From Parelaphostrongylus tenuis (lineage: Eukaryota > Nematoda > Chromadorea > Rhabditida > Metastrongylidae): a DNA stretch of 64,000 bases. Positions 17,101 through 63,081 of this stretch are shown piece after piece; within the stretch, counting starts at the first letter, position 1, and each line of letters opens with the position of its first letter. The translations under genes and the position numbers were made by a program. The notes under the pieces are model-generated. The model was not told the DNA's origin, made no database searches, and saw nothing but the letters and a program-made list of their open reading frames with translations. Location of the stretch: assembly GCA_019055375.1 (NCBI GenBank), contig JAHQIW010000080.1, forward strand, positions 1 through 64,000. The letters run 5' to 3'.

Positions 17101-18770
17101 AATTTTACGTGACTTCAAGATCTTAGAGAAATTAGAGAATTTCACAAGGTGGCAGTTATCATATGGTGTGAACGGAGATTCAACTAACCAACTATTCCTC
17201 TCCTAATCGTCTGCTCAACGACACAATGATACCTTAGAACATCTGTGACACATCCACATCAGTATCATTCAGCATTCTACTCTGTTCTCGAATCTGATTG
17301 GTGGATCTCTGAAACTTACTATGAATGTGTTTACGGTGAATGATGACGAAATCCTGCTTAGCAACTTGACAGCAAACTACAGGATAGCTCGTTCGCGAAA
17401 TGGCGATGATAGGCTTGAGCTCGCATCACTATATGTGGTCAGTTGACCTTGGCTCTCAAAAGTTTTTGCTCTGAAAGAGCTTCACGTATATAGCGATTTA
17501 CCCAAAAAACCAGACATGCCAATCTCACTCCGCTGTTCCTCCGATAAGGAAGTGTTTTTTGGAAGAAATCGTTGATGCAGAAATCGCTGGATCATCAACA
17601 AAAAGTGTTCATACAGCAGTCTGTTGTTTCAGCGAAAATGTGCTACCACACAAGTTGAAAACAGACCTTTTTTCTGATGCCAACTAAGTGGAACACTATG
17701 ACTGTTTTATGACATGCGCGATACCCATGTTAGAATCGCAGGTACTTTTTTCCTATCCGCACCAAATTTCAGTTCTTGGGGGATGACTCATTTTTCTGCT
17801 TTTTATCAGAGTTTTATTAATCATTCGACATCAGAAATGCAGAGAATTCAGATATTTTATTTATACTGTGGTCCAATTACTATGCTGTAGCATAAAACAT
17901 GAAATTATGCTTCACAATCAAGCATTTTTTCTAGGAAAAGCTTTTCACAGATTTTTCGCAATCAATAGAGAGCTTGATTACCGATTGTGTTGACGGCGCA
18001 CTTAGTTTTTTTCGAGAAAACTTTTTGTTGCCCTGCAAGACTGAGAATGAAATTGCATTTTGCACGCGCCGCTCATTCTTGTTTCGGTATGTGGATGGAA
18101 CTCCGCAACATCGGCATCAGGACATCGCGTTTTCGCAAAAATGCACGCACCCTAGTAGACAAAAATGCGCGCCGAGTGCGAAACCCAATTTTCTTTTGGG
18201 TGCACAACGCAACAAGAAGTCTTTTTAAGAAGCCAGACATGATACTGGAATAGCCGAGATTTGCGCTGTCACTCGATTATTGAAAGCTCACGAAAAAGCT
18301 GTGTCTAGCGATAACAGGCCAAGCGTGAATCATGATTTTCTTTTGACTTTCGGAACGCAAAAATGTTTTCTTCTTGAATAAAGTAAGCTGTTGAAATTCT
18401 CGAAAATTAAGCTATTTTTTTGAAACTCTCAAACAAATAAAACCCCTTTCTTCTCAAGAGGTTGAAAATAGGTGGGGAAAGAGGAAAAGTACCGATTCAC
18501 ACAATATAAGAAGGAACGGAATTGAACTATGAACTTAAGTCGACCCTGCCCTGAAGAACACGAAGACACAGAATGGTCACGAATTAATTTCTTTATCCTT
18601 GTGTCAGTTTAGCTGTGGAAAAAAACGACAATGGAGAGGCTAAAGACTAAATACTTTCAATGATTCACCCATGTACGGATGACACTTTCGAGACAACACT
18701 GGAGCGCAGCACCTAATTTGTATATTCACCAAATCCCCTTTCAGCCATCCTTGTGCTTAAGTCTCAAGCA

Positions 18771-19075
18771 CATCACGTGTCCGTCGGATACGTAAAGTGC
18801 TTTGAGGCAGCCGATGGACGAGAATCGTTACAGACCGGATTCCTCGCAATGACAGACTTACTACAGGAAGACCAGCAACCCATTGCTCTGGCTTCTTCTT
18901 CAGAGCACAGAAAAAAAATATGATGCACAACAGATTACTATAATGGGGAAGAACTACTGGGCTAGCCTTGCACGTGATAGGAAAAAATGGAAGTTTATTG
19001 GTGCCCTCTCGAGACACTAGGCGGTCAGGAAGGCGGCACGTGACAGGCGACAGGTGAAATCCACGGCAGGAGACA
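18771..19075 (+). mobile_element. Old RTE 3'-end fragment (copy A)
   Basis: Reads as a diverged version of 26460-26700: tccgtcggatacgtaaag, gattcctcgcaatgac, gggctagccttgcacgtgat. It corresponds to the C-terminal GHVMRF...WIPR and 3' UTR. The orthologous fragment in copy B is at 58622-58910, so insertion predates the duplication. Confidence 0.75.
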
Positions 19076-19428
19076 ATCATGGCTTGAAGCCGCAAAAAAG
19101 TTCTGGGGATTTTTTCGATATCTCAATTCCATTGCAGTAGAGATTTAGAGAAAGTCATAGTTGAGAATTATAAAAAGCTCCTTATCGGAATTTTGAACTG
19201 CTTTAAGTCGATTTTCAAAACATTTAGGTGCTCAGTTTTACACAGAATGTGCAAACAGCCTGTGTAGTTACCTAACGTCAGTCGTTATAAAATACCGTTG
19301 TTAAAAGAGTCTTTTGCTTCCACTTGAAAATCTAACACTTTAAACTTAAGTTAACATCTCTTAAACATCATCTACTCATTTGAATACAAATAAATTGGTA
19401 GATCTGTCAATGAGGGCTGACTTATAGA

Positions 19429-19471
19429 GCCCGATACACGTGTTTCGATCTCGCGATCTCGTCAGTCGGGC
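19429..19471 (-). ncRNA. Type I hammerhead ribozyme, intact core (tandem unit 1)
   Basis: Read on the minus strand: stem I GCCCGA pairs with TCGGGC at the 3' side. The core CTGACGA is followed by stem II GATC-GCGA-GATC (4 bp with a GNRA loop), then GAAA and stem III ACAC/GTGT. The NUH site is GTA, with cleavage predicted between 19435 and 19434. Every invariant core base (CUGANGA, GAAA, UH) is present. Confidence 0.9.
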
Positions 19472-19745
19472 AGTTGCCCTCTCACGCCTTTTGCTAATTT
19501 CTGTGGGTGCTCCAGTCCCCACAATAAGAACTAGCGACGACGTACGACTTACACTCTATGTCCAGCAAAGAACTTACCAAACACAGAGTGTTGTACACTC
19601 GAATGCTCGTGGCTAGTATATTCAATATATCATATCTTTTGTTTCGAGTGTTTTCTTAAGACCACAGCTCAAATTTCAATATGCCTGGTAATCATTATTT
19701 GAGCCACGCATGTCAGTGGTCTGTCAATGAGGGCTGACTTATAGA

Positions 19746-19788
19746 GCCCGATACACGTGTTTCGATCTTGCAATCTCGTCAGTCGGGC
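19746..19788 (-). ncRNA. Type I hammerhead ribozyme, intact core (tandem unit 2)
   Basis: Same architecture as the copy 317 bp to the left. Stem I is GCCCGA/TCGGGC, the core CTGACGA, stem II GATT-GCAA-GATC (one T.G pair, GNRA loop), then GAAA and stem III ACAC/GTGT. Cleavage is predicted between 19752 and 19751. Together with the other unit it would release nucleotides 19751 to 19435 as a 317-nt RNA from a minus-strand transcript. Confidence 0.9.
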
Positions 19789-20193
19789 AGTTGCCCTTTC
19801 CCGTCTTTTGCTAATCTCTGTGGGTGCTCCAGTCCCCACAATAAGAGTTAGCGACGACCTACGTTTTACACTCTATGTCCAGTGAAGAGCTCACCAAACA
19901 CAGAGTTTTGTACACACGAATGCTCGTGGCTAGTATATTTAACTGACACTGACATGCGTGGCTCCAATAATGATTATCAGGCATATTGAAATTTGAGCTG
20001 TGGTCTTAAGAAAACACTCGAAATGAAAGATATGTTATATTAAATATACTAGTCACGAGCATTCGAGTGTACAAAACTCTGTGTTTGGTGAGTTTTTCAC
20101 TGGACATAGAGTGTAAAACGTACGTCGTCGCTAACTCTTATTGTGGGGACTGGAGCACCCACAGAGATTAGCAAAAGACGAGAAAGGGCAACT

Positions 20194-20236
20194 GCCCGAC
20201 TGACGAGATCGCAAGATCGAAACACGTGTATCGGGC
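20194..20236 (+). ncRNA. Type I hammerhead ribozyme, intact core, opposite strand
   Basis: Plus-strand copy: stem I 20194-20199 (GCCCGA) with 20231-20236 (TCGGGC), core CTGACGA 20200-20206, stem II GATC/GATC with a GCAA loop (20207-20218), GAAA 20219-20222 and stem III ACAC/GTGT. Cleavage is predicted after A20230 (GTA site). It sits in the right arm of the palindrome with the unit at 19727-19941. Confidence 0.92.
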
Positions 20237-20289
20237 TCTATAAGTCAGCCCTCATTGACAGACCACTGACATGCGTGGCTCAAATAATT

Positions 20290-20480
20290 CATTTAACTTG
20301 TAGACGCATTAATCAATATCATTAGCTGTTGTTGTTGTTGTGTTATTATATTGTATATAATATTTAAATGACTTAGGTTTGAGTTTGTTCGATCTATGGC
20401 GAAAAGAAGCAAAAAAGTCCCGCGTGGTAAGATTTACAAGGCGAGCAAACTCCCTAGCCAGTACAACTGTGGAAAACCAA
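20290..20480. repeat. Dispersed repeat shared with 27050-27215
   Basis: Both have a tgttgttgtgt tract, tttgag...ttcgatctatggcgaaaag, and agtacaactgtgga near the end. It lies directly right of the ribozyme palindrome. Confidence 0.5.
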
Positions 20481-21042
20481 AAGATGTACTGTGAAGTTGA
20501 GAAAACGCATTATGAAAGCAAGACAACACTTTTTTTAGCACATCATACTGTGAAGGTCTCCTCATAAACCAGACTTATTACTGGATTTTGCAGCTCCGCG
20601 CTACTGAAGGATCACTATAAGTCCGGCGAAAAACTCTTTTCAGAAAAGAAGTCAAGGAAACATGGATACATTCTATACAATATGAGAAAAAGGAAATTTC
20701 CGACACATAAGCGTTCTTTATATAAGGAAAAAACTTTTATAGATGTCTCCTCTTTTGTATTTCTATTCGATAATGAAAATGTCCCTTAGGACCTCAGTTT
20801 ACCCACATAACCCCATAATCCCACTACAGCGCACGGAAACACAATTTCTTGCCCCGTGCAACGTGCGACGTCGTGGATGATGACACACACGCCACGAGGG
20901 ACACAAAGGGCCAACTAGAAACAGTTACGCGTGATATTCAGGTCAGTGCAGTGACTTGCCTCTCTTCTATTGCCTTTTCACTCTAAACTTCTGTAGCTGC
21001 TGCAGCATGTATTCTTGAGCATAATTGATGAGCTATTGTGCA

Positions 21043-21989: not shown

Positions 21990-23331
21990 ATAAATATCAC
22001 CTGTATCACCTGCCGTCCCGTTGATATTTTTCCCGATCGCGTGCAAGAGTAGCCCAGTTTGTCCTCCTCCCTCTAGGGATTCGCTGAGCATCATATCTTT
22101 CTTCTATCGCTATCGTGAAGAAATCGGACCAACGGGTCAGTGGTCATCCTTTAGAGCGCATGACGTCCCGAGGAATCCAGTCGCTAGCGGCTCTCGTCCA
22201 TCGGTTGTCGTTGAAGCGCATCACGTGTCCGGCCCACCTTATTTTCGATGTCCTGGCGTGTAGAACGGCGTCTCTGATTTTCGATCGTTGACGTAGGTCG
22301 GAACTTCGGATCCTTTCTCTCATTTGTGAGATGCGAGATACTCCTAGCATCGACGTTTCGACTGCGCGTTTGATAACGCCAAGTGATCTTTCATCCTGCT
22401 AACGTAGCGACCAGGTTTCTGCTGCATGTATTAGGGCAGGGATAACTGTCGAGTCGAAAAGGTGGGCACGGAGTCGGATGTTCTTTGTTCCTCTTCACTA
22501 CATCTTCGATGCTCTTAAACGTTCCCCAAGCCGCTCGTTTCTCCTGCTCAACTCTGGAGCTAGGTCGTTCATCATGTTGATTTCACGACCTAGATAGATG
22601 TAACTGGAGCATTCGGAGATTGTCGTTCCGTTGAGCGTGAATGGGGCATTCGAAACCATCCGTTCCTCATGAACATCGTTTTCGTTAGATTTAGTTGAAG
22701 ATCAATCTTTCCACAAGCGTTATCGAAATCGGTCAACATTCGTTCCGCTTAGCTGATGTTTGGTGTTATGAGAACGATATCTTCAGCAAAGCGAAGATGG
22801 TTTAATTGTCGACCGTCAATTTTCACTCCCATTTCGTCCCATTCTAATGTTCGCATGACGTTTTGTAGGGTGGCAGTGAATAGTTTGGCGAAATTGTATC
22901 GCCTTGTCGAACCCCCTCTTCTTACGTCAATGGTGATATTGTTGTAGAATGGAGATATTTTGGTCGTGAAATCTTTATAAAGCTCACGAAGGATCATTAT
23001 GTAGCGAGTAGGGACGCTCTGGTTATCCACAGCCTCTATAACCGCTTCTGTTTCCACTGAATCAAAAGCTTTCTTCAGATCGATGAAAGTGAGACAGAGT
23101 GGTTGTTTGTACTCTCGTGAAACTTCAGTGAGTCTTGTAATTGTGTGGAGTGTGGTCTATGGCACTAAATCCTTTTCGGAACCCTGCTTGTTCGCATGGC
23201 TGTCCTTCGTCCAGTGTTCTGTCAATCCTGTTTAGGAGACTCGAGTAAAGAGTTTCATAGACATCGTACGGCAAACAGATTGGGCGATAATTGCCTATGT
23301 CGTGAAGGTCTCCCTTTTTGGACAACAACTA
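21990..23331 (-). mobile_element. 5'-truncated RTE element in inverted orientation
   Basis: The reverse complement of the last 1.3 kb of the neighbouring RTE (equivalent to about 25376-26700). It starts at KKGDLHDIGNYRPIC and ends with the same gatacaggtgat tail at about 21995-22015. Frameshifts split the RT. Motif C reads FAED (Glu codon at 22782-22784) instead of FADD. Its 5' end faces the 5' end of the plus copy across a 38-bp TA tract. Confidence 0.88.
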
Positions 23332-23874: not shown

Positions 23875-24929
23875 ATGACGATCTGTACTTACAGCGCATG
23901 AACCCTTGCTCACCAATCCGCTGTAGAAGATCTGTTGATTCAAGCAAGAAGAATAAGGTACGACGTCATTGGCCTGGCTGAGACGAGAAGGCGCCATCCT
24001 TTTCACGCTGTTTATGACACCGGAGAAGAACTGTTCCTTGGTACATGCGATCGCAGAGGTGTCGGCGGCGTTGGCGTCCTCGTCAAATCGAATTTGACCG
24101 TGAACATTGATTCGTTCGAACAACTAACAACCCGTATCGGACGATTACGGTTGAAAACGATGTGGTTCTATGCCGGCTTTGACCATCTTCGTTGCTTACG
24201 CACCAACATCAAGCTATGACGAAGACGAAGTCGAAGCGTTCTATATGGACCTCGAAAAATTCTTCAGAGAAGATCATACATTCTTCAAGGTCATTGTCGG
24301 AGATGTTAACGCAAAAATTGGACCTAGAAGAACGTCTGAAGAACGTCACATAGGGACCCACGGACTAGAATGGAATGAACAGAGTGAGAGGCTATCTGAG
24401 TTTATCATGACCACCCAAACCATCCATGGTAACTCGCAATTCCAAAAGCCTCTTTCTCAGCGATGGACGTGGGAGTCTCCCAATGGAGAGTAACATAACG
24501 AAATAGATCACATCATAGTAAATCGAAGGTTTTGCCTGACCGACGTCGCTGTTGATCCTAAGTTCTACACGGGATCAGACCATCGCCTCCTTCGCGCAAC
24601 ATTCCGATTTTCGATGAGAGGAGAGAAAGCCGCTCAATTCAAACAACGAAGTCCCAGAACTACCATAAACTGGGATGTATTCAAATCATTAGTCGGCTCT
24701 TGGGAAGATACCGTTGTCGACAACATCGACGAAGAATACGATCGACTCGTTCGAATATCTTCGCGTTAGCGCTATGAAAGCCGAGAGTCCTAAGGTCACG
24801 AAGAGACGCTTGTCTCCGCAGACACTCGAGCTGATTCGTCAACGTGGAATCGCACGAGCTGCAGGCAACCGAAACCTTACAGTCCGAACTTGCGAAACGC
24901 TGCAGAGAAGCGATAAAAGAAGACCTTAA
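23875..24929 (+). pseudogene. RTE endonuclease region, disrupted
   Basis: The reading frame opens at ATG 23875 (MTICTY) and hits TGA at 23899. It continues as IGLAETRRR, shifts frame near 24180, continues as [14 protein letters not shown] and [11 protein letters not shown], meets TAA at 24491, and resumes as NEIDHIIV and GSDHRLL. These are the catalytic Glu, Asp/Asn and final Asp-His motifs of apurinic-like LINE endonucleases. Another shift near 24745 leads into the linker. At least two stops and two frameshifts make this copy non-autonomous. Confidence 0.88.
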
Positions 24930-25021
24930 AGAGAGAACAGCAGCAGTTATGGCAGAAGCTGCAGAAGCTGGGAAGAGCATTTCGCAAAGCCCAGCGAGGC
25001 TTCGCCAACTATAAGACCAAG

Positions 25022-26551
25022 ATGATTGCACTCCGATACCCTGACGGGACACTTACAGCTTCGAGAAGGGCTATGGAGAAAATCATCCACCAATACTACT
25101 CGGATCTCTTCGCTAGCCATGTTCTCTTACCGTCATATAAATTGAAAGAGGACGAATATGTCGTTCCACCGGTCCTTCCTTCCGAAATCCGACATGCTAT
25201 ATCGTCGGTGAAAAACAGAACAACACCCGGTCCAGACAGGATTAGACCAGAACATCTGAAGAATCCTGCCGCCAGTTCTCATCAACACCCTGGCTCGGCT
25301 CTTCACTCGCTACCTGTCAGAATGCAAGGTCCCTATTCAATGGAAAACCAGCAAGACCGTATTGTTGTTCAAAAAGGAGACCTTCACGACATAGGCAATT
25401 ATCGCCCAATCTGCTTGCTGTCCGTTGTCTATAAACTCTTTACTCGAGTCATCCTAAACAGGATTGACAGAACACTGGACGAAGGACAGCCATGCGAACA
25501 AGCAGGGTTCCGAAAAGGATTTAGTACCATGGAGCACATCCACACGATTACAAGACTCATCGAAGTTTCGCGAGAGTACAAACAACCACTCTGTCTCACT
25601 TTCATCGATCTGAAGAAAGCCTTTGATTCAGTGGAAACAGAAGCGGTTATAGAGGCTCTGGATAACCAGGGCGTCCCTACTCGGTACATAATGATCCTTC
25701 GTGAGCTCTATAAAGATTTCACGACCAAAATATCTCCATTCTACAACAATATCACCATTGACGTAAGAAGAGGGGTTCGACAAGGCGATACAATTTCGCC
25801 AAAACTATTCACTGCCACCCTACAAAACGTCATGCGAACATTAGAATGGGACGAAATGGGAGTGAAAATTGACGGTCGACAATTAAACCATCTTCGCTTT
25901 GCTGACGATATCGTTCTCATAACACCAAACATCAGCCAAGCGGAACGAATGTTGACCGATTTCGATAACGCCTGTGGAAAGATTGGTCTTCAACTGAATC
26001 TAACGAAAACAATGTTCATGAGGAACGGATGGGTTTCTAACGCCCCATTCACGCTCAACGGAACGACAATCTCCGAATGCTCCAGTTACGTCTATCTAGG
26101 TCGTGAAATCAACATGATGAACGACCTAGCTCCAGAGTTGAGCAGGAGGAAACGAGCGGCTTGTGGAACGTTTAAGAGCATCGAAGATGTAGTGAAGAGG
26201 ACAAAGAACATCCGACTCCGTGCCCACCTTTTCGATTCGGCAATTATCCCTGCCCTGACGTATGCAGCAGAAACCTGGTCGCTACGTAAGCAGGATGAAA
26301 GATCACTTGCCGTTATCGAACGCGCAGTCGAAAGGTCGATGCTAGGAGTATCTCGTATCTCGCAAATGAGAGAAAGGATCCGAAGTTCCGACCTACGTCA
26401 ACGATCGAAAATCAGAGACGCCGTTCTACACGCCAGGATATCGAAAATAAGGTGGGCCGGACACGTGATGCGCTTCAACGACAACCGATGGACGAGAGCC
26501 GTTACCGACTGGATTCCTCGGGACGTCAGCGCTCTAAAGGATGACCACTGA
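25022..26551 (+). CDS. RTE reverse transcriptase (509-codon open frame)
   Basis: An uninterrupted frame covers the RT and C-terminal region. In order: TPGPDRIRPEHL, KKGDLHDIGNYRPICLL (RT motif 1), AGFRKG, FIDLKKAFDSV (motif A Asp), RGVRQGDTISP (motif B), LRFADDIVLI at about 25892-25921 (motif C, FADD), LNLTKT, YLGREI, and the RTE C-terminus RWAGHVMRF...WIPRDV. Residues about 80-118 are out of the family frame because two compensating indels (near 25262 and 25372) bracket them. Motif Asp residues are present, but the stretch and the broken endonuclease argue against activity. The ATG is internal to the original polyprotein. Confidence 0.88.
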   Translation: MIALRYPDGTLTASRRAMEKIIHQYYSDLFASHVLLPSYKLKEDEYVVPPVLPSEIRHAISSVKNRTTPGPDRIRPEHLKNPAASSHQHPGSALHSLPVRMQGPYSMENQQDRIVVQKGDLHDIGNYRPICLLSVVYKLFTRVILNRIDRTLDEGQPCEQAGFRKGFSTMEHIHTITRLIEVSREYKQPLCLTFIDLKKAFDSVETEAVIEALDNQGVPTRYIMILRELYKDFTTKISPFYNNITIDVRRGVRQGDTISPKLFTATLQNVMRTLEWDEMGVKIDGRQLNHLRFADDIVLITPNISQAERMLTDFDNACGKIGLQLNLTKTMFMRNGWVSNAPFTLNGTTISECSSYVYLGREINMMNDLAPELSRRKRAACGTFKSIEDVVKRTKNIRLRAHLFDSAIIPALTYAAETWSLRKQDERSLAVIERAVERSMLGVSRISQMRERIRSSDLRQRSKIRDAVLHARISKIRWAGHVMRFNDNRWTRAVTDWIPRDVSALKDDH

Positions 26552-38463: not shown

Positions 38464-41400
38464 CTGAATAAGATCCATGATACTATGTGAGTTTGCTGTT
38501 CAAACAGTTCAAAACAATCCGATATTATAGTGTTCGCTCTTAGTTTCTTACTACAAATTTCCCTACCACAAACCTACTTCCCATCAAATTTCACGGGCAT
38601 TGAGCTTCTGCGTTTCTCGGCTACGTGACTTCCATAGTGAGTCGTGTAACAACCCTACCTTTTTCGTTTCGAGTGTTTTCTTGAGACCACAGCTCAAATT
38701 TCATTATGCCAAAAAATCATTTTTGAGCCAATCCTATGTTTTGTGAATAAGAGCTTCGAGAGTGTGACACAAAACGGCTACGCGGTCGGATGTTTTACAT
38801 TGTGCAAGTGATTAATGAGGCACTTACCGATATTTTTCCGGAGCGTGAGGATCAGTTAGAATGAGGCCGATCAAGGAGTCTGTCCTCGAATGGCCACACC
38901 ACACCTGTAAAATTGTGCTTCCAAACTGTTATCATTACTCTATCCTCTCATCATAACAAAATCTTCAACTTTCAATTACCGCGAATTTTTTTACGGCGGT
39001 TGCGATGTGATTTGTAATCACAATGATTCTGAGGTACCCATGCTTAGCCTTCGCTCTAATCATGTTTTGACCTTGTCCGAGTGATGGATAACACGCGAGT
39101 TCGAGTTAATTGCGGGTTCAGAGTATACCACTATTCATGTGATCATAATCAGTTTAGTAGACAAACTCTCAGTGGACAATAATCAAAGGCTAGGTAACTG
39201 AGGCAACGTGTGTTGTGCTGATCTATGGCACTACTTAGCGCACTTGTGAGCGCTATCACGCAATACGCATAATAACCCTCTAACCCTAGGGAATGAATAG
39301 TTCAGCAGTTAGCGATGAAGTGCAACATACACTCCTCGTTGCCTGCGAGCCACCAAGCCTCCCATAGATTTTCGATTAGAAACGCTTCATTGAGTATGTG
39401 ATTTGTAAAACTCTATATGCTCTACACTGTCTAATGCTAATCTGAAACGCACTAGTCCGTGATTTCGGTCTAAGAATATTATTTATACTTTTTGTCGATA
39501 TAGGTAAGCCTCATTCTTATTTCTACTGGTTCAGTTAATTTCTTATAATGTTAAATGAGAAATCGGCCTTTCATTCGATTTTTCTGGAAAATACTCTTGT
39601 GGCGTTCTCAACAACAATTTGCAAACATACTTCATCTCTGGGCAGAATCTTAAAATGTCTTAAATCTTTTTTACTGTCGTACGAGACTAATTTCCTCGAC
39701 AATATCAACTCATTGAAAAAGTCGCTTATTACTTTTATGATTTGCAGCATTCTCAAGATAAGTGCTACTTTGAATGCTGGAATTCACTGTAGTATCAAAA
39801 TGAAACGTCCGCAAACGATATCGTGGCGATTGGTATCGATCGGTTCATTTTATAGAAATTAAGATACTGTTGTGTCATTTGAACTAAGAAGTTCGGTCGT
39901 TACTCGCGCATCGATTTACTAAATTATAGATTCAAGGAAGGTGAAGACGCTGAAACATTAGCCGGACAAAGGTTTTTGAACTTCGAGTTAGCTCGGTCAC
40001 TCAAGGCAACATTCGTTCAAGGATGCTTAACTAAGCACACTTCGAAGTCCAGGTTTTTTGAACTTCTCGTGTTACCCGCGATTTATCGCACTCTTGTGGA
40101 GGGAGTTTCTGATTCCACGATTAGGGACTGAATGTCGGTAGAGGAACGCAACGTTGAAAAAAATTCTGACAACCTTTTTGCAAAGACTGGTTAGAAGAAA
40201 CTTATATCGCCATTATTTTTCAAAAGGTTTCATCGCAAGAAGGAAAATGTCTTGCAAAAGACGAGGTGGTTGCTTGGTGACACGTGAAAAGCCATGAAGT
40301 GGTTTTTTCAAGTGATTTCAAAGGCGAAGCTCGGAAATTCCATCAAGCACCATTCAAAGATGGAAGACGAACTGCAGAGTTCTTAAAGTGAGTGATTCAA
40401 TTTTTCAAATACAAAAGATATCACTGTTTGAGTCTTTTTCAAATTATCAGGAGCTACAGTATGATTCTTGATTTTCTTCTTTGAGCAGAACACGAGGTGT
40501 TACATTAAACTTTATTCGATAGCTGACGTTTCGGCAGTTCGCCTTCTTCAGAGCCTGGAAAGGTCAAAATGTTTGCAATACAATCAGTCAAACACCTCCA
40601 TTACTTCTTTAGAAAAAATCACCAGACCTAGATTTCAATCGCATCAAGCAAAAATCAACACTCAACATACTCACCGCTTGTTGTTATATGTGTTCCACTG
40701 AATGATCCCAGTGGAGATCACCGGAAAGAGAGACACATAGGCTCGTAATGCACCCTACCCATCAAACAACAGTCTTATATACTGGCTCATATCACGAGTG
40801 TTTACAAGGCATTCCTCTCTGCGGTTTATGGTTGGATTGGTCGTATTAATCCAAAATGCTTCCAAGATCTTTCGCGCTGATGTTTTTTGCTCTTGCGCAA
40901 GGATGGTGACTTCGATTTCAAAATCAACTTCGTCGTGCTCGATGCGTCCCTAGCGGGGTGTTTCGTCTACTAAGACGCTTGTCAGCTAGGTGTTCTTCTA
41001 TGCGTGCATAGAGCGGCCTACCCGTTTCGCCTATATATTTATCACTACACGTTTTGCAAGAGATTAGGTAGACTATACCTACGCTCATGCAATCACCTAC
41101 GCTATCAGGAGCTAAGCTTTCAAAATTATCAGGAGCTAAGCCGAATAAGAAGGCTATCTTCTCTTTTGTACAAGATTTATCGCCCAGAATCACGTTGAAC
41201 CTGATTTTGAAGCCGACCTAGGCTTTCCAGTCTTAATTAGTAGCTTTCCAATTCTTTTAATTAGATTAATTTGATCAATTAATTTTAATTAGATTGATTT
41301 AATTAGTAGCTTTCCAATTCTGCAAATATTGATCCAGTGAGGTAGCATAATTCTTTGTCCAGCATACAGAATAATTAGTATAATTGGCACTTATTCTGAA

Positions 41401-47400: not shown

Positions 47401-50400
47401 TTTTTCTCTGTTGCTAAGTTACCCGTTTCTTTGAGGCAGCTAATCTCTAATTCGCATCATTTACGTATTACTTTGGGCCTTCTGTGTCTCAGCCCCAGCT
47501 TCTGAAACCTTTTGCACTGATGTATGTGTGTGATGAAAAACTCTCATCCCTTGCAACTATGCTGCTATCACAATCAGTAGTCAATTTTACCAATTTTCAA
47601 AAATTATATGGAAGTAACTGGTAACCGACTTTTTTTAGCTTCGATAATACCACCCAGTTACATACTTTTTGTTAATTAAGCGAATAGCACAAAGTCCATG
47701 GAAATAAAATATATTTCTTTGACGTTTTGGCGTCTTCGTCCTCATCAGAGCGAATGAGTGGAGTCGGCATACAAACTTCCTCGTTCGTCAGAATTTAATC
47801 ATTATCAATTCGTGCTATTCGCTAAATCAACAAAGAATATGTGATTATATGACAATACCTTTCTATTCGACTGTTTTTGAGACCCCGCTATCACAAAAAT
47901 GTGCTATTAGATTATATTCAATTTTGAGCGAGGTCTCTAAAATAGTTTCTTGTAGGGAAACGATTGAGCATGTGCCCTGATGAGGTTTGCGAAAGCCGAA
48001 ACGTACGTCTAGCACTAGAAATACAATACCAGATCTCTGGGAAGCTTGAAATATGCTATTCGCTTATATAACAGTATTTTAATATGAATCTATCCCTTAG
48101 AGCGCATGTGGCGCAGTGGTCAGAGGTGCCCCGCTTCGCACACGAGGTCAATGGTTCGATCTCGCGCTCATGGCTCACCAAACCATCCATCCCTCCGGGG
48201 TCGGTAAATTGGTACCACACTGGTCTTAGACCTATCTGGGAGGATAAGCAGCACTGACGTCTTTTGAGCGGGAGGCCACCGCGAGTCATTGTAAAGGCCA
48301 GATATGCATTCAATCACCTCAAACGAAAATAGAAATTGAAGACGAATGCATGGCGCATCCCTCAGGGATTGATCAACTCCAAGAGCTTTACGCTTTATCC
48401 TTCCATCCCTTAGAATAACAGCAATTTTAACAGTGATTGAAAATGAAAAAAACAATCAAGTCCTCTTAGGCGAACTCCTACTCGTCCAGTCGCTTCGTCA
48501 ACCACCAACAATTATCATAGAACAATCAAGTTTTGTGGGCACCTCAAAGAATACCAGTTTGTCAGAGTGGAAAGAGCTCCATAAAGTTTGCAAAACCTCC
48601 AAAATTCGCTTGATTTTTCTTTGAATGGCTCAGTATGAGCCGAGATATGTCTGTTTCAAAAATGAAAAACTCATTTTGTGTCAAGCAAGATTAACACTGC
48701 GCTTAAAAGCAACACATTCCTCCTTGCTTTATCACTGATCGGTAAAAGCACTGTGGTGTTTGCTCTCTCTATATCACTTCTATCTATCGAATCACCCAAC
48801 TCCAACATTTACAACAATAGCTAGAGAACATTCAATTAAAATCGGAGGAGTGATAAGTTACTTTCACACATCTAATTTTTTGCTGTTTCCTTTTTGCGTT
48901 TTCCAACAAATTATTGCTTTTGAAAGCTGAAAGCTCTCGACGCTGGTTATTCCTGAAGAGGTGACTGTGCATCCGACATTATCGAGCATCGTTAGAAGTG
49001 ACTGTGTAAATCTGGACCTCACATTGACCCATAGGGCCTGCCGATGTGTTGAATCAGTGATGATTTTCTTCCGGACAAGTTTAGTAGCAATTTGTCCGCC
49101 CTGATGGAAGGCTTGGTGATCTGCTTGTCCAGAATACTGGCGTCTATACATTCCCTCTCAAAATGCTTTTTATGACAGAAAATCTTAGTTAATTATCAAG
49201 TTAATTCGTATAATACAAAAGTTCTACGTTTCACAACAATTCTGACAAGCAAAAGCTGTTTGTTGGTAATGTCAACCACTGAGTTATTCTCTTGGACAAG
49301 TTCGAATTCTTTGCAAGCTCATCGACTTTCTACAAACCTGGGAGATGTCTTCATATCGTTCACCGAGTTCGCCGCCCCAGCTGGATGAGTAGCGAAGGTA
49401 AGCATAGTTCGTGACAATCCTTGGATCCGTTGAATTAATCAGTTCGGTGACTCTGTAACAGCCCTATGATTCCGATACTCAGGAACGATTTGGCATGAAC
49501 TCTATCACCTTCTCATATAATCGATTTCTGTTATGAGTATTTGTGGTTCATTTGCTAGATAGTTGTTGAGTGCAAATGGCGCAACGAAATGAAAATATCT
49601 GGCCCAGTCCACCTGGAAGCAGCCGTACTTCATTAGTTAAAACTCAGGAATCCTGAAATCTCATTAAGTCTCTATTCTCAGCAAATACTGTAGTTAACAA
49701 GTGCTAAGTGCTGTCATTTGTCACACTTTTCAGAACGATGTGTATGCATTTGTGTGCACGCTTGTCTGCTCGTTTCGGACAACGTGTACGGTTTTGTATG
49801 CAGGCGCTATACAGTGGCCTTTTCCGTTGAGCACAACCTTTAATCAAAACCTATGATTTTTACAAAGTGCTCGTTTAAATTCAAAATTTTTAAGAACTAA
49901 GGTTTTAACTATCAAAATACACGGTATTAACACCTCGAAAATGCAACGAATACTCAACAGACTCAAATGTAAACATTTAGGAAACACCAGCGTGTCGTGA
50001 TGGATGAAATACTGCACGCTGAACTATTCTGACTTCAGTGATACAAGTTTCGATATAAAGACTGAGACAATGCATTAATGGCGATGTGATTTCTTTTTCA
50101 TAATCTAGTGAAAAATAAAATTTTATTTTGACATAATGTGAATATGGGTCTCTGATTTCCAAAAGTCAGAAGAAAGTTTTCGTCGTTGCTCCAAAAAACT
50201 CCACTTTGAGCTGAAACATGTTGGCTTAAAGTTGGAACACGTCCCACGTTTCCGCTTAACATGAGATATGCACTGTTCATGAAGTTGCAAATGCTTCGGA
50301 AACTGACAGAAAAATTCTCTCGTTTAATGAAAAAACTGTATGAAGCGATGATTTTCTATTAATGAATGTAACAGCTTAAAGAAATAGCCTTTGCCAATTT

Positions 50401-61122: not shown

Positions 61123-61167
61123 GCCCGATACACGTGTTTCGGCCTTGAGCAACCTCGTCAGTTGGGC
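61123..61167 (-). ncRNA. Hammerhead ribozyme, core retained
   Basis: Minus strand: CTGACGA, a stem II of weak pairs (GGTT...GGCC), GAAA, ACAC/GTGT and the GTA cleavage site are all present. Stem I GCCCAA/TCGGGC has one mismatch. Better preserved than its orthologue at 21043-21087. Confidence 0.75.
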
Positions 61168-62020
61168 CCTTCGTATCTAGCCAATCCTGCTGGGGTGCAC
61201 CAGTCCCCACTAAGAGTAGGCAACGACGAACGATCTACACAACTGCTGTCAAGCGAAAATTCACTAGATCGGGAGTGTTGTACACTCGATTGTTCTTGGC
61301 CGGTATTTTGAAATATTATACCGTTCGCTTCGAGTGTTTTCTCAAGACGACGCTCAAATTTCAATCCATCTCATACTATTATATGGGCTAACATGTCGTA
61401 TGTTCTGTTAATGGGCTCTTGAACAGCTCGATACACACTTGGCACAAATAATAATCATGAGATGTATTGGAACTTGAGCGTGGTCTTATGGAAACAACTG
61501 AAACGAACGGCGTAATTAATGAATTTTCAAATGGATTATATCAAAGCAGAGAGGTTTTTGGAATGATCTCATGATGTTTCAACAAGAGAGACGTATACTG
61601 CTTAAGTTAACGAAAAGACCAACATTTTCAGTTTACTTCATAAAATGGCGATGATGAGAAAAGATAGTGCAAGCAGAGTGTAAGCGAATGGAGTGAATTT
61701 ATTTTCGCATAGGGTGCGCGGAAACGGTCACAAGGTCACTGTGACGTACCCTTTTTCGTTGCTTAAGGTATAGCTGGGTATCCATAACAGGCACATGATA
61801 GCAGACAAATCGTACACGCGGACACAGCATATATAACATGAAGAATGCATAACAGGACATAACAGGAATAGGAATGACATCATATAATGGAAATCAATAA
61901 GATATGAGGAAAAATGTAATATCACGAAGACAATGGTGAATGTTCTCAATGAGATAGTGGACAGTCTCTATGTGCGTCTTTTGTCTATTGATTAGTGGGT
62001 ATTATATGCTCTATATATAT

Positions 62021-62423: not shown

Positions 62424-63010
62424 TGAGCTACTAACTATCAAGAACACAGAGTTTATACTTGACCTAACACATGTATACATATATGTATATATATATAAAC
62501 ACATTAAATTAGCAACTACTAAGAATTTAGAGTTTTCCAGATTTAAGTAATTTTTCGTCAACTAGGTTGTCTTCAAAATTAAACTGTCTGGGTTTGGGAT
62601 CTATCGGTCTCCCATTAGTCTCACGGCCCACTTCTATGGTTAAGATTTTAAGATTTTTTTTTCATGTTTACCCAGACAGTTTTAAATACCATATGAACTC
62701 TCGTTTTTAAGCTCATAAAAGTTTCTGACATTTACTCTGGTATTTCAAGTTTGCCTTATTTTCTAAGGCGATCTGCAGCTTGATAAGATGGTTTTCACTG
62801 ATGTGAACGCATCTTTTCACCTACAGTGACCATTTTTGTAAAAAGATGATTATCAATTAAAGTACAGAATTTCAAAACTTTTACAAGAGCAATGTGATGT
62901 TGAAGAATGGGCGTATTCGGTTGAACAGAGTGGATAAATAATGTTTAACGTTTAATAAAGTTGGATTCTTATAGTATACCCAATATGTGGAGTACTGTGC
63001 AAAAACGTTT

Positions 63011-63081
63011 GCGTCAGCCGGGATTCGAACCCAGATCTCACTCTTTCCGGGAGCGTATGCTAACCGTTGCACTACCGACGC
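63011..63081 (-). tRNA. tRNA-like sequence (SINE head, probably not a functional tRNA gene)
   Basis: 71 nt fold as a full cloverleaf: acceptor GCGTCGG/CTGACGC, D stem GTGC/GCAT, anticodon stem CGCTC/GAGTG, T stem CTGGG/CCCGG with loop TTCGAAT. The anticodon loop would be CCGGAAA, lacking U33. A diverged copy is at 26954-27005 and a partial one at 63197-63236, so it behaves as a repeat. I infer a SINE head. Confidence 0.6.

Follow-up and report, generated by a model that had tools for sequence, protein, structure and literature searches.

A dispersed 317-nt hammerhead unit of the nematode Parelaphostrongylus tenuis, probably a non-coding retrozyme mobilised in trans by Penelope-like elements

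What kind of element carries the pair of hammerhead ribozymes on the minus strand near position 19,400 of this 64,000-nt stretch of Parelaphostrongylus tenuis DNA (hereafter the window), and how is it copied? An earlier note on the window had described two complete type I hammerheads in direct orientation, 317 bp apart, and had proposed that a minus-strand transcript would release a 317-nt RNA suited to circularisation, as in retrozymes. Both motifs lie where they were placed, with cores starting at 19782 and 19465, and the cuts predicted from the sequence agree with those given (19752/19751 and 19435/19434, spaced by 317 nt, at GUA/UCGGGC). Unit mapping, with coordinates (u) in which u1 is the first base 3′ of the predicted hammerhead cut, revealed that three hammerheads, two on the minus strand and one inverted on the plus strand, are parts of one insertion. 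The insertion, its relatives and a remnant of another element in the window are as follows.

19403–20288 (~0.89 kb), no single strand: whole retrozyme insertion, a direct arm (minus) and an inverted arm (plus) joined head to head at 19943–19946, from unit mapping, inverted repeats and a duplicate on contig C748
19752–19942, minus: first unit of the direct arm, 5′-truncated, u127–317, from unit mapping
19746–19788, minus: hammerhead 1, stem I to stem I, core starting at 19782, predicted cut 19752/19751
19435–19751, minus: complete 317-nt unit bounded by both predicted cuts, from unit mapping
19429–19471, minus: hammerhead 2, core starting at 19465, predicted cut 19435/19434
19403–19434, minus: 3′ end of the direct arm, u1–32, at a minority end site (32–34, used in 3 of 34 loci)
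19947–20288, plus: inverted arm, u34–317 (19947–20230) followed by u1–58 (20231–20288), from unit mapping and the inverted repeat
20194–20236, plus: hammerhead 3, inverted, strict core 20200–20223, predicted cut 20230/20231, overlooked in the earlier note
181–584, minus: second copy of the 317-nt unit family, u38–317 then u1–123, 81–84% identical to the unit, core 313–336
61129–61365, minus: diverged relative of the unit, 73%, hammerhead core 61136–61161
40453–40551, minus: 3′ tail of a Penelope-like element (PLE), with the hammerhead CTGAAGAAGGC..GCCGAAACGTC (40551–40525) and 72 nt past the cut

The direct hammerhead pair is part of a foldback whose arms are 93% identical over 316 nt and 97% identical over 249 nt, and the two direct units share 92% identity over the 223 nt compared. 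RNA transcribed across the insertion can pair with its own inverted arm, which weighs against release of a 317-nt circle at this locus. Six matches to the strict core CTGANGAG..CGAAAC lie in the 64-kb window, compared with 0.02 expected from shuffles. Five of these cores are of the CGAAACACGUG kind (313–336, 19442–19465, 19759–19782 and 61136–61161 on the minus strand, and 20200–20223 on the plus strand), and the sixth, at 47977–48002, is of another kind. The window insertion is also found on the short contig C748 (region L009), where its layout is preserved and the query matches at 100% identity, so the assembly contains haplotigs or a recent segmental copy.

Both cores of the direct pair have CUGACGAG, CGAAA, stem I GCCCGA/UCGGGC, loops of GCAA or GCGA, and a GUA site. 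Their description as complete type I hammerheads holds for stems I and II, which are good, but not for stem III, in which no more than 2 bp enclose the ACGU of the palindrome ACACGUGU. The Rfam hammerhead model, put forward in the earlier note as a check, found nothing in the window at the gathering threshold, nor in 18600–21000 at E values up to 10, a miss that is probably explained by the reduced stem III. A MIR821 match at 19874–20108 (73 bits, gathering threshold 249) was rejected as a microRNA, being the two-arm foldback. When the hammerhead was folded as a monomer, its energy was −10.9 compared with −14.5 for the minimum-energy fold; the minimum of two-strand folding (−36.9) was exactly the double hammerhead, with the 8-bp palindrome as a common stem III. 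The unit hammerheads are therefore predicted, from these folds, to be dimer-type ribozymes with a minimal stem III.

Exact CTGANGAG..CGAAAC cores number 9,037 in the 481.5-Mb genome searched (5,105 contigs, duplicate contigs included in the counts), and a reversed-pattern control gave 0. Among 100 listed places, stem II was paired in 284 of 300 cells (shuffle mean 214), and among 39 distinct sequences in 101 of 117 cells (shuffle mean 79.6); 0 of 2,000 shuffles reached the observed value in either set. This excess over shuffles indicates that pairing has been maintained through sequence change by co-variation. The strict core is retained in 37 of the 39 full units mapped. The unit itself is non-coding (longest stop-to-stop frame of 67 aa in three tandem consensus units), has a GC content of 43.5% and, when folded as a circle of one unit, is predicted to pair extensively with itself (z = −5.3 relative to 100 mononucleotide shuffles).

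The anatomy of the insertions was examined in 39 fetched regions with the element (L009–L047), taken from the best-scoring 40 of 4,367 candidates, a sampling by which long copies are over-represented among the mapped loci. Duplicated or allelic copies were recognised in four groups (window/C748, L021/L022, L032/L033 and L036/L037/L041/L046); dropping L009, L022, L033, L037, L041 and L046 and adding the window left 34 loci. The copies are 5′-truncated tandems with 1.3–3.2 units in one direction per locus, and a partial inverted arm is present in 20 of the 34. Direct repeats of at least 10 bp (10–15 bp) flank the insertion in 17 of 33 loci, compared with 5 of 1,056 swapped-flank control pairs, L012 having been skipped because it lies at a contig edge; such repeats are absent in the other 16. 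At L035 and L039, both among the 17, the left repeat copy lies 15 and 7 nt, respectively, outside the mapped element start, and in many loci the target repeats overlap the element 3′ end by a few nucleotides. Searches for empty sites, carried out locally at the L019, L026 and L030 junctions, returned merely 66–76% relatives across the junctions, and a genome search for an empty allele of one locus, L013, returned none.

The 3′ ends of the long arms fall mainly at two sites, 67–83 nt past the cut (site A; 18 of 34 loci) and 115–132 nt past it (site B; 13 of 34), with three further loci, including the window, at 32–34. Inverted arms end at site A in 4 of 20 loci, at site B in 12, at 48–58 in three and at 295 in one (the complex locus L016). 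The two arms of a locus tend to end differently: in 16 of 19 inverted-arm loci (L016 dropped) one arm ended below 110 and the other above 110 (permutation p 0.009), and of the 14 loci whose arms both end at A or B, 13 had one of each. The sole like-ended locus of these 14 is L047 (120/120), and its removal, which is post hoc, leaves 13 of 13 unlike. The window locus is atypical in ending at u32 and u58 and in having no direct repeat of at least 10 bp. The hairpins at sites A and B are nearly invariant; both sides of a pair have changed in just two instances, each in stem B, so the covariation check speaks for conservation and adds no covariation support beyond it. Folds of short fragments were inconsistent, and sites A and B were not consistently unpaired.

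Long-arm 5′ ends are variable, with 12 of 34 at u277–292, in a search whose query began at u281 and thereby disfavoured later 5′ starts. This cluster would suit either a linear template whose 5′ terminus is fixed or a stop of the reverse transcriptase (RT) at the ribozyme. At L026 an apparent start at u1 was considered as a hammerhead-cut 5′ end, but the alignment continues to about u302 and the candidate was discarded. Among the first 100 places in contig order, neighbours less than 1 kb apart comprised 13 head-to-head pairs, one tail-to-tail pair and three same-strand pairs, two of the latter at 317–318 nt. The 13:1 ratio in a contig-order listing means that head-to-head insertions are common and not an artefact of the choice of loci. 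Tandem copies with a 317-nt period, for which the earlier note had suggested a search, do occur as these two direct pairs of exact cores but are rarer than the 13 head-to-head pairs in the same 100 places, which further disfavours release of a 317-nt circle.

The template of each insertion was approached through non-consensus variants. Those recurring in sibling pieces of the same insertion amounted to 308 of 556 (55%) on the same strand, compared with 112.3 (20%) expected, and to 144 of 325 (44%) on the opposite strand, compared with 61.3 (19%) expected. Sharing was in excess in 26 of 34 loci, the window being an exception, with 2 of 49 variants in common between its pieces versus 7.7 expected. 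At L021, neighbouring units are identical over 315 nt, though 17 sites are off consensus in both. Rates of rare variants (2.60 per 1,000 nt within loci and 0.12 between) were set aside as biased by the definition of 'rare', and the recurrence count was used instead. The sharing fits one circular or homogeneous multimeric template per insertion; later gene conversion would look similar. At these loci the copies continue beyond the cut for entire units, so a ribozyme-released linear monomer cannot have served as their sole template. Copying would thus appear to need a multimeric or circular template, which is not necessarily a circle.

A possible source of the copying enzyme is present in the same genome. 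Adjoining the retrozyme copy L047, on contig C4892, is a PLE that has RT ORFs together with one for GIY-YIG (Pfam RVT_1, 1.2e-9; GIY-YIG, 1.2e-4). At least 143 matches were obtained with the PLE RT region as query (6,155 candidates, of which 142 were scored); in many of them the frame is open for 600–902 aa, and groups of copies with equal scores occur. Every named match to the PLE RT piece came from a strongylid nematode. The PLE tails examined carry a hammerhead of their own, CTGAAGAAGGC..GAAACGTC, found at 2,465 exact places with 0 for the control. In all 20 PLE copies sampled the 3′ end lay 110–128 nt (median 120.5) beyond the cut of the element's own hammerhead, and none continues into the ORF; these copies were picked from 40 matches to a query reaching 119 nt, so that long tails were favoured and short ones under-sampled. 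Other PLE ends were at 59, 68, 72 (the window remnant), 72, 79, about 100 and 119. Among the first 100 PLE hammerhead places listed, pairs less than 5 kb apart were head-to-head in 15 cases, tail-to-tail in 0 and on the same strand in 4 (two at 2,983–2,986 nt), and all six opposite-strand pairs of PLE RT matches less than 3 kb apart were head-to-head. One PLE head-to-head junction was seen at L077. The retrozyme and the PLEs therefore have end distances, the choice between two sites and the double-arm layout in common.

This likeness does not extend to the sequences. No alignment beyond chance was found between the unit and three PLE 5′ regions, the C4892 PLE tail or the window PLE tail, so the link to PLEs rests on geometry and not on sequence. 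Nor is the unit itself a PLE, as it encodes no protein, neither RT nor GIY-YIG, and PLE proteins are encoded elsewhere in the genome. The C4892 PLE was dismissed as its direct parent, having a tail with a different hammerhead and no alignment to the unit. At one place (L047, 1540–1760, minus strand, near G000:C4892:200156; n = 1) a PLE ORF is joined to the retrozyme at u2, beside the predicted cut. Such a chimera is what a template jump by a common RT would give, and as a single case it is suggestive.

Two side observations concern other loci. By eye, a PLE arm at C4796 lies directly against retrozyme-like sequence (L074, 1–45), which may represent another mixed insertion. The L047 region forms a perfect palindrome, with arms of 371 nt at 100%, that extends beyond the element into the flanks, and a PLE at C3441 (L075, L076) likewise appears by eye as a palindrome extending past the element into the flanks; these palindromes may be assembly foldbacks or very recent palindromic duplications.

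We interpret the element as a non-autonomous, non-coding nematode retrozyme that is mobilised in trans by PLEs, a reading to which we give a probability of roughly 0.7. PLE mobilisation is favoured because the insertion ends and the head-to-head architecture match those of PLEs in the same genome. The positions of the insertion ends are those expected if cDNA started internally at two sites downstream of the hammerhead, as in Penelope-type insertion, and the DNA orientations (13:1 for the retrozyme, 15:0 for PLEs) point to priming on both target strands, yielding two arms with their 3′ ends outward. Internal or read-through transcription would produce multimeric retrozyme RNA, which hammerhead pairs with an 8-bp stem III in common would, going by the predicted fold and conservation, partly self-cleave; circularisation is possible. 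The PLE protein would then bind uncut multimers or ligated circles and nick both target strands 10–15 bp apart, a spacing suggested by the target duplications. From the ends, cDNA would start internally at A (67–83) and B (115–132), one arm per strand, and the anatomy suggests that the two 5′-truncated cDNAs would be joined head to head. The main findings that count against this scheme are the atypical window locus, the 16 of 33 loci that have no direct repeat of at least 10 bp, and the lack of sequence similarity to PLEs; on the same side stand the failure to find an empty allele of L013 and two observations on the Anolis PLE discussed below, the insensitivity of insertion to ribozyme mutants and the cDNA starts without homology to the cut DNA.

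A bolder version of this scheme, which we hold tentatively and at somewhat less than even odds, is that retrozymes are substrates of the PLE RT by copying the PLE spacing from the cut to the two start sites, and that a PLE dimer uses both sites at once, one per nicked strand, the normal insertion being a head-to-head pair with A on one arm and B on the other. If true, this would settle the mobilising enzyme of animal retrozymes and explain the inverted arms of PLEs.

We weighed three other explanations. The unit could be the pseudo-LTR (pLTR) of an autonomous PLE family that lies outside the fetched regions, its copies being solo or tandem pLTRs formed by 5′ truncation or deletion. PLE pLTRs are described as carrying minimal type I hammerheads (PMC7761336), the end geometry of the unit is PLE-like, and the PLE sample is small (three 5′ regions and one PLE followed from ORF to tail). 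However, the PLE tails examined have a different hammerhead and do not align to the unit, which in the fetched regions adjoins itself or flanking sequence; PLE-like ORFs of at least 150 aa occur there in L047 alone, in the neighbouring PLE with the other hammerhead. We consider this origin unlikely. An alternative enzyme is offered, for example, by the RTE-type LINE abundant in the genome, which might copy the retrozyme via a small circular RNA. The circle model is the one published for animal retrozymes (PMC7229834), RTE sequence is present in the window (24917–26548, RVT_1 1.1e-34) and in L014 and L027, and the sharing of variants from unit to unit within an insertion is the expectation of rolling copying of one circle. 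Yet the two fixed internal end sites and the head-to-head double arms match same-genome PLEs, and the 12 of 34 5′ ends at u277–292 are not predicted by a circle, so that another RT seems a slightly poorer candidate even than a hidden PLE family. An ordinary tandem satellite with fossil ribozymes, spread by recombination or segmental duplication, would account for the 317-nt direct repeats and for the loci that are plainly duplicated or allelic; it is very improbable, since insertions with differing flanks show target duplications and ends that are fixed on the 3′ side but variable on the 5′ side, and since ribozyme pairing is maintained across the listed places.

Animal retrozymes with type I hammerheads have been reported from cnidarians, molluscs, rotifers, flatworms, annelids, crustaceans, insects and amphibians (PMC7229834). 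The non-LTR retrozymes described there (Cervera and de la Peña 2020) are built of non-coding tandem units of ~170–400 nt, each containing a single type I hammerhead; they have a GC content below 50%, no LTR, a dispersed distribution, high copy number, target-site duplications (TSDs) of more than 4 bp and a highly self-paired predicted RNA, and in these respects they are like the P. tenuis element. The latter has its type I hammerhead core in a non-coding tandem unit within 150–450 bp, is dispersed in high copy and without LTRs, and has TSDs of more than 4 bp (10–15 bp in 17 of 33 loci). The retrozyme reading of the earlier note thus stands as regards a non-coding, tandem 317-nt hammerhead unit of a nematode with thousands of dispersed copies and target-site duplications, while the foldback and the third, inverted motif depart from it. 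The unit differs from the retrozymes of PMC7229834 in its inverted arms and two fixed 3′ end sites, and the terms 'inverted', 'truncat' and 'nematode' are absent from the main text of that paper. It differs further in its minimal, dimer-type stem III, as in amphibian retrozymes and PLEs, whereas most invertebrate retrozymes are described with a stable stem III (PMC7761336).

Minimal hammerheads without helix III have been reported by the thousand in many animal genomes, mostly dispersed in non-coding DNA and some in PLE pseudo-LTRs (PMC7761336), so the type of ribozyme is itself not new, and the cores counted here may belong to this dispersed minimal type I sort. Unlike the dispersed motifs as described there, they are part of a defined tandem unit of 317 nt, the insertion ends of which have been measured. 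PLEs have been proposed as mobilisers of retrozymes (PMC7229834, PMC7761336), and named as strong candidates on the grounds that both have type I hammerheads, form tandem copies and are found together in the animals studied (PMC7229834). The link was thus previously proposed for other animals, not shown. The closest mechanistic parallel is the PLE Poseidon of Anolis (PMC11167929), described as having a minimal hammerhead, two preferred internal cDNA starts past the cut, use of both target strands, and tandem or partial-tandem copies. In that work the purified protein cuts and extends both target strands, internal cDNA starts lie at sites that define an optional 30–40 bp genomic tail, and insertion in the assay is unaffected by ribozyme mutants (PMC11167929). 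The cDNA starts described in PMC11167929 are non-homologous to the cut DNA, whereas in many loci here the target repeats overlap the element 3′ end.

Two further comparisons concern the ribozyme and its host. The unit shares with the small dimeric hammerhead variants a reduced stem III, a predicted dimeric fold and the PLE association, and differs from them in placing the motif in a separate 317-nt non-autonomous unit. Those variants, with reduced stem III and PLE association, were reportedly described by Lunse, Weinberg and Breaker in 2017. Sm-alpha is a non-autonomous, hammerhead-bearing element of a parasitic worm. The P. tenuis unit is likewise non-autonomous, hammerhead-bearing and from a parasitic worm; phylum and ribozyme differ. 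The host of the Sm-alpha elements is Schistosoma mansoni (PMC6155905).

In the literature searched we found no description of a nematode retrozyme; the 2014 PLE-hammerhead work, the 2017 dimeric-variant work or later studies may list nematodes, and a term search of the main text of the P. tenuis assembly paper (PMC10940269) gave neither 'Penelope' nor 'hammerhead'. As far as this literature shows, the new points are the nematode family, the dimer-type ribozyme in a separate tandem unit, and the quantitative match of ends and architecture to same-genome PLEs. Retrozymes are extended to a nematode, with more than 9,000 ribozyme cores. Here both elements are abundant in one genome, where their insertions can be compared nucleotide by nucleotide, so that the question of which enzyme mobilises animal retrozymes becomes testable with purified PLE protein and the 317-nt RNA.

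Several other features of the window were observed. At 47600–48080 there is a different hammerhead at 47977 on the plus strand (CTGATGAGGTTTGCGAAAGCCGAAACGTACGTC), preceded by hairpin-like sequence, and a decayed one at 47748 on the minus strand; these look like another PLE pLTR family. A tRNA-like sequence followed by a tail, which we take to resemble strongylid SINEs, occupies 48103–48200. RTE-type LINE fragments lie at 22749–23156 and 24917–26551, the second with an open frame of 544 aa, 61% of which aligns at 98% identity with a P. tenuis protein; the three closest P. tenuis matches of this RTE ORF are 94–98% identical over 51–61% of the length and the fourth is 87% identical. The sole Rfam gathering match of the window is a tRNA-Ser (GGA) gene on the minus strand at 63010–63081.
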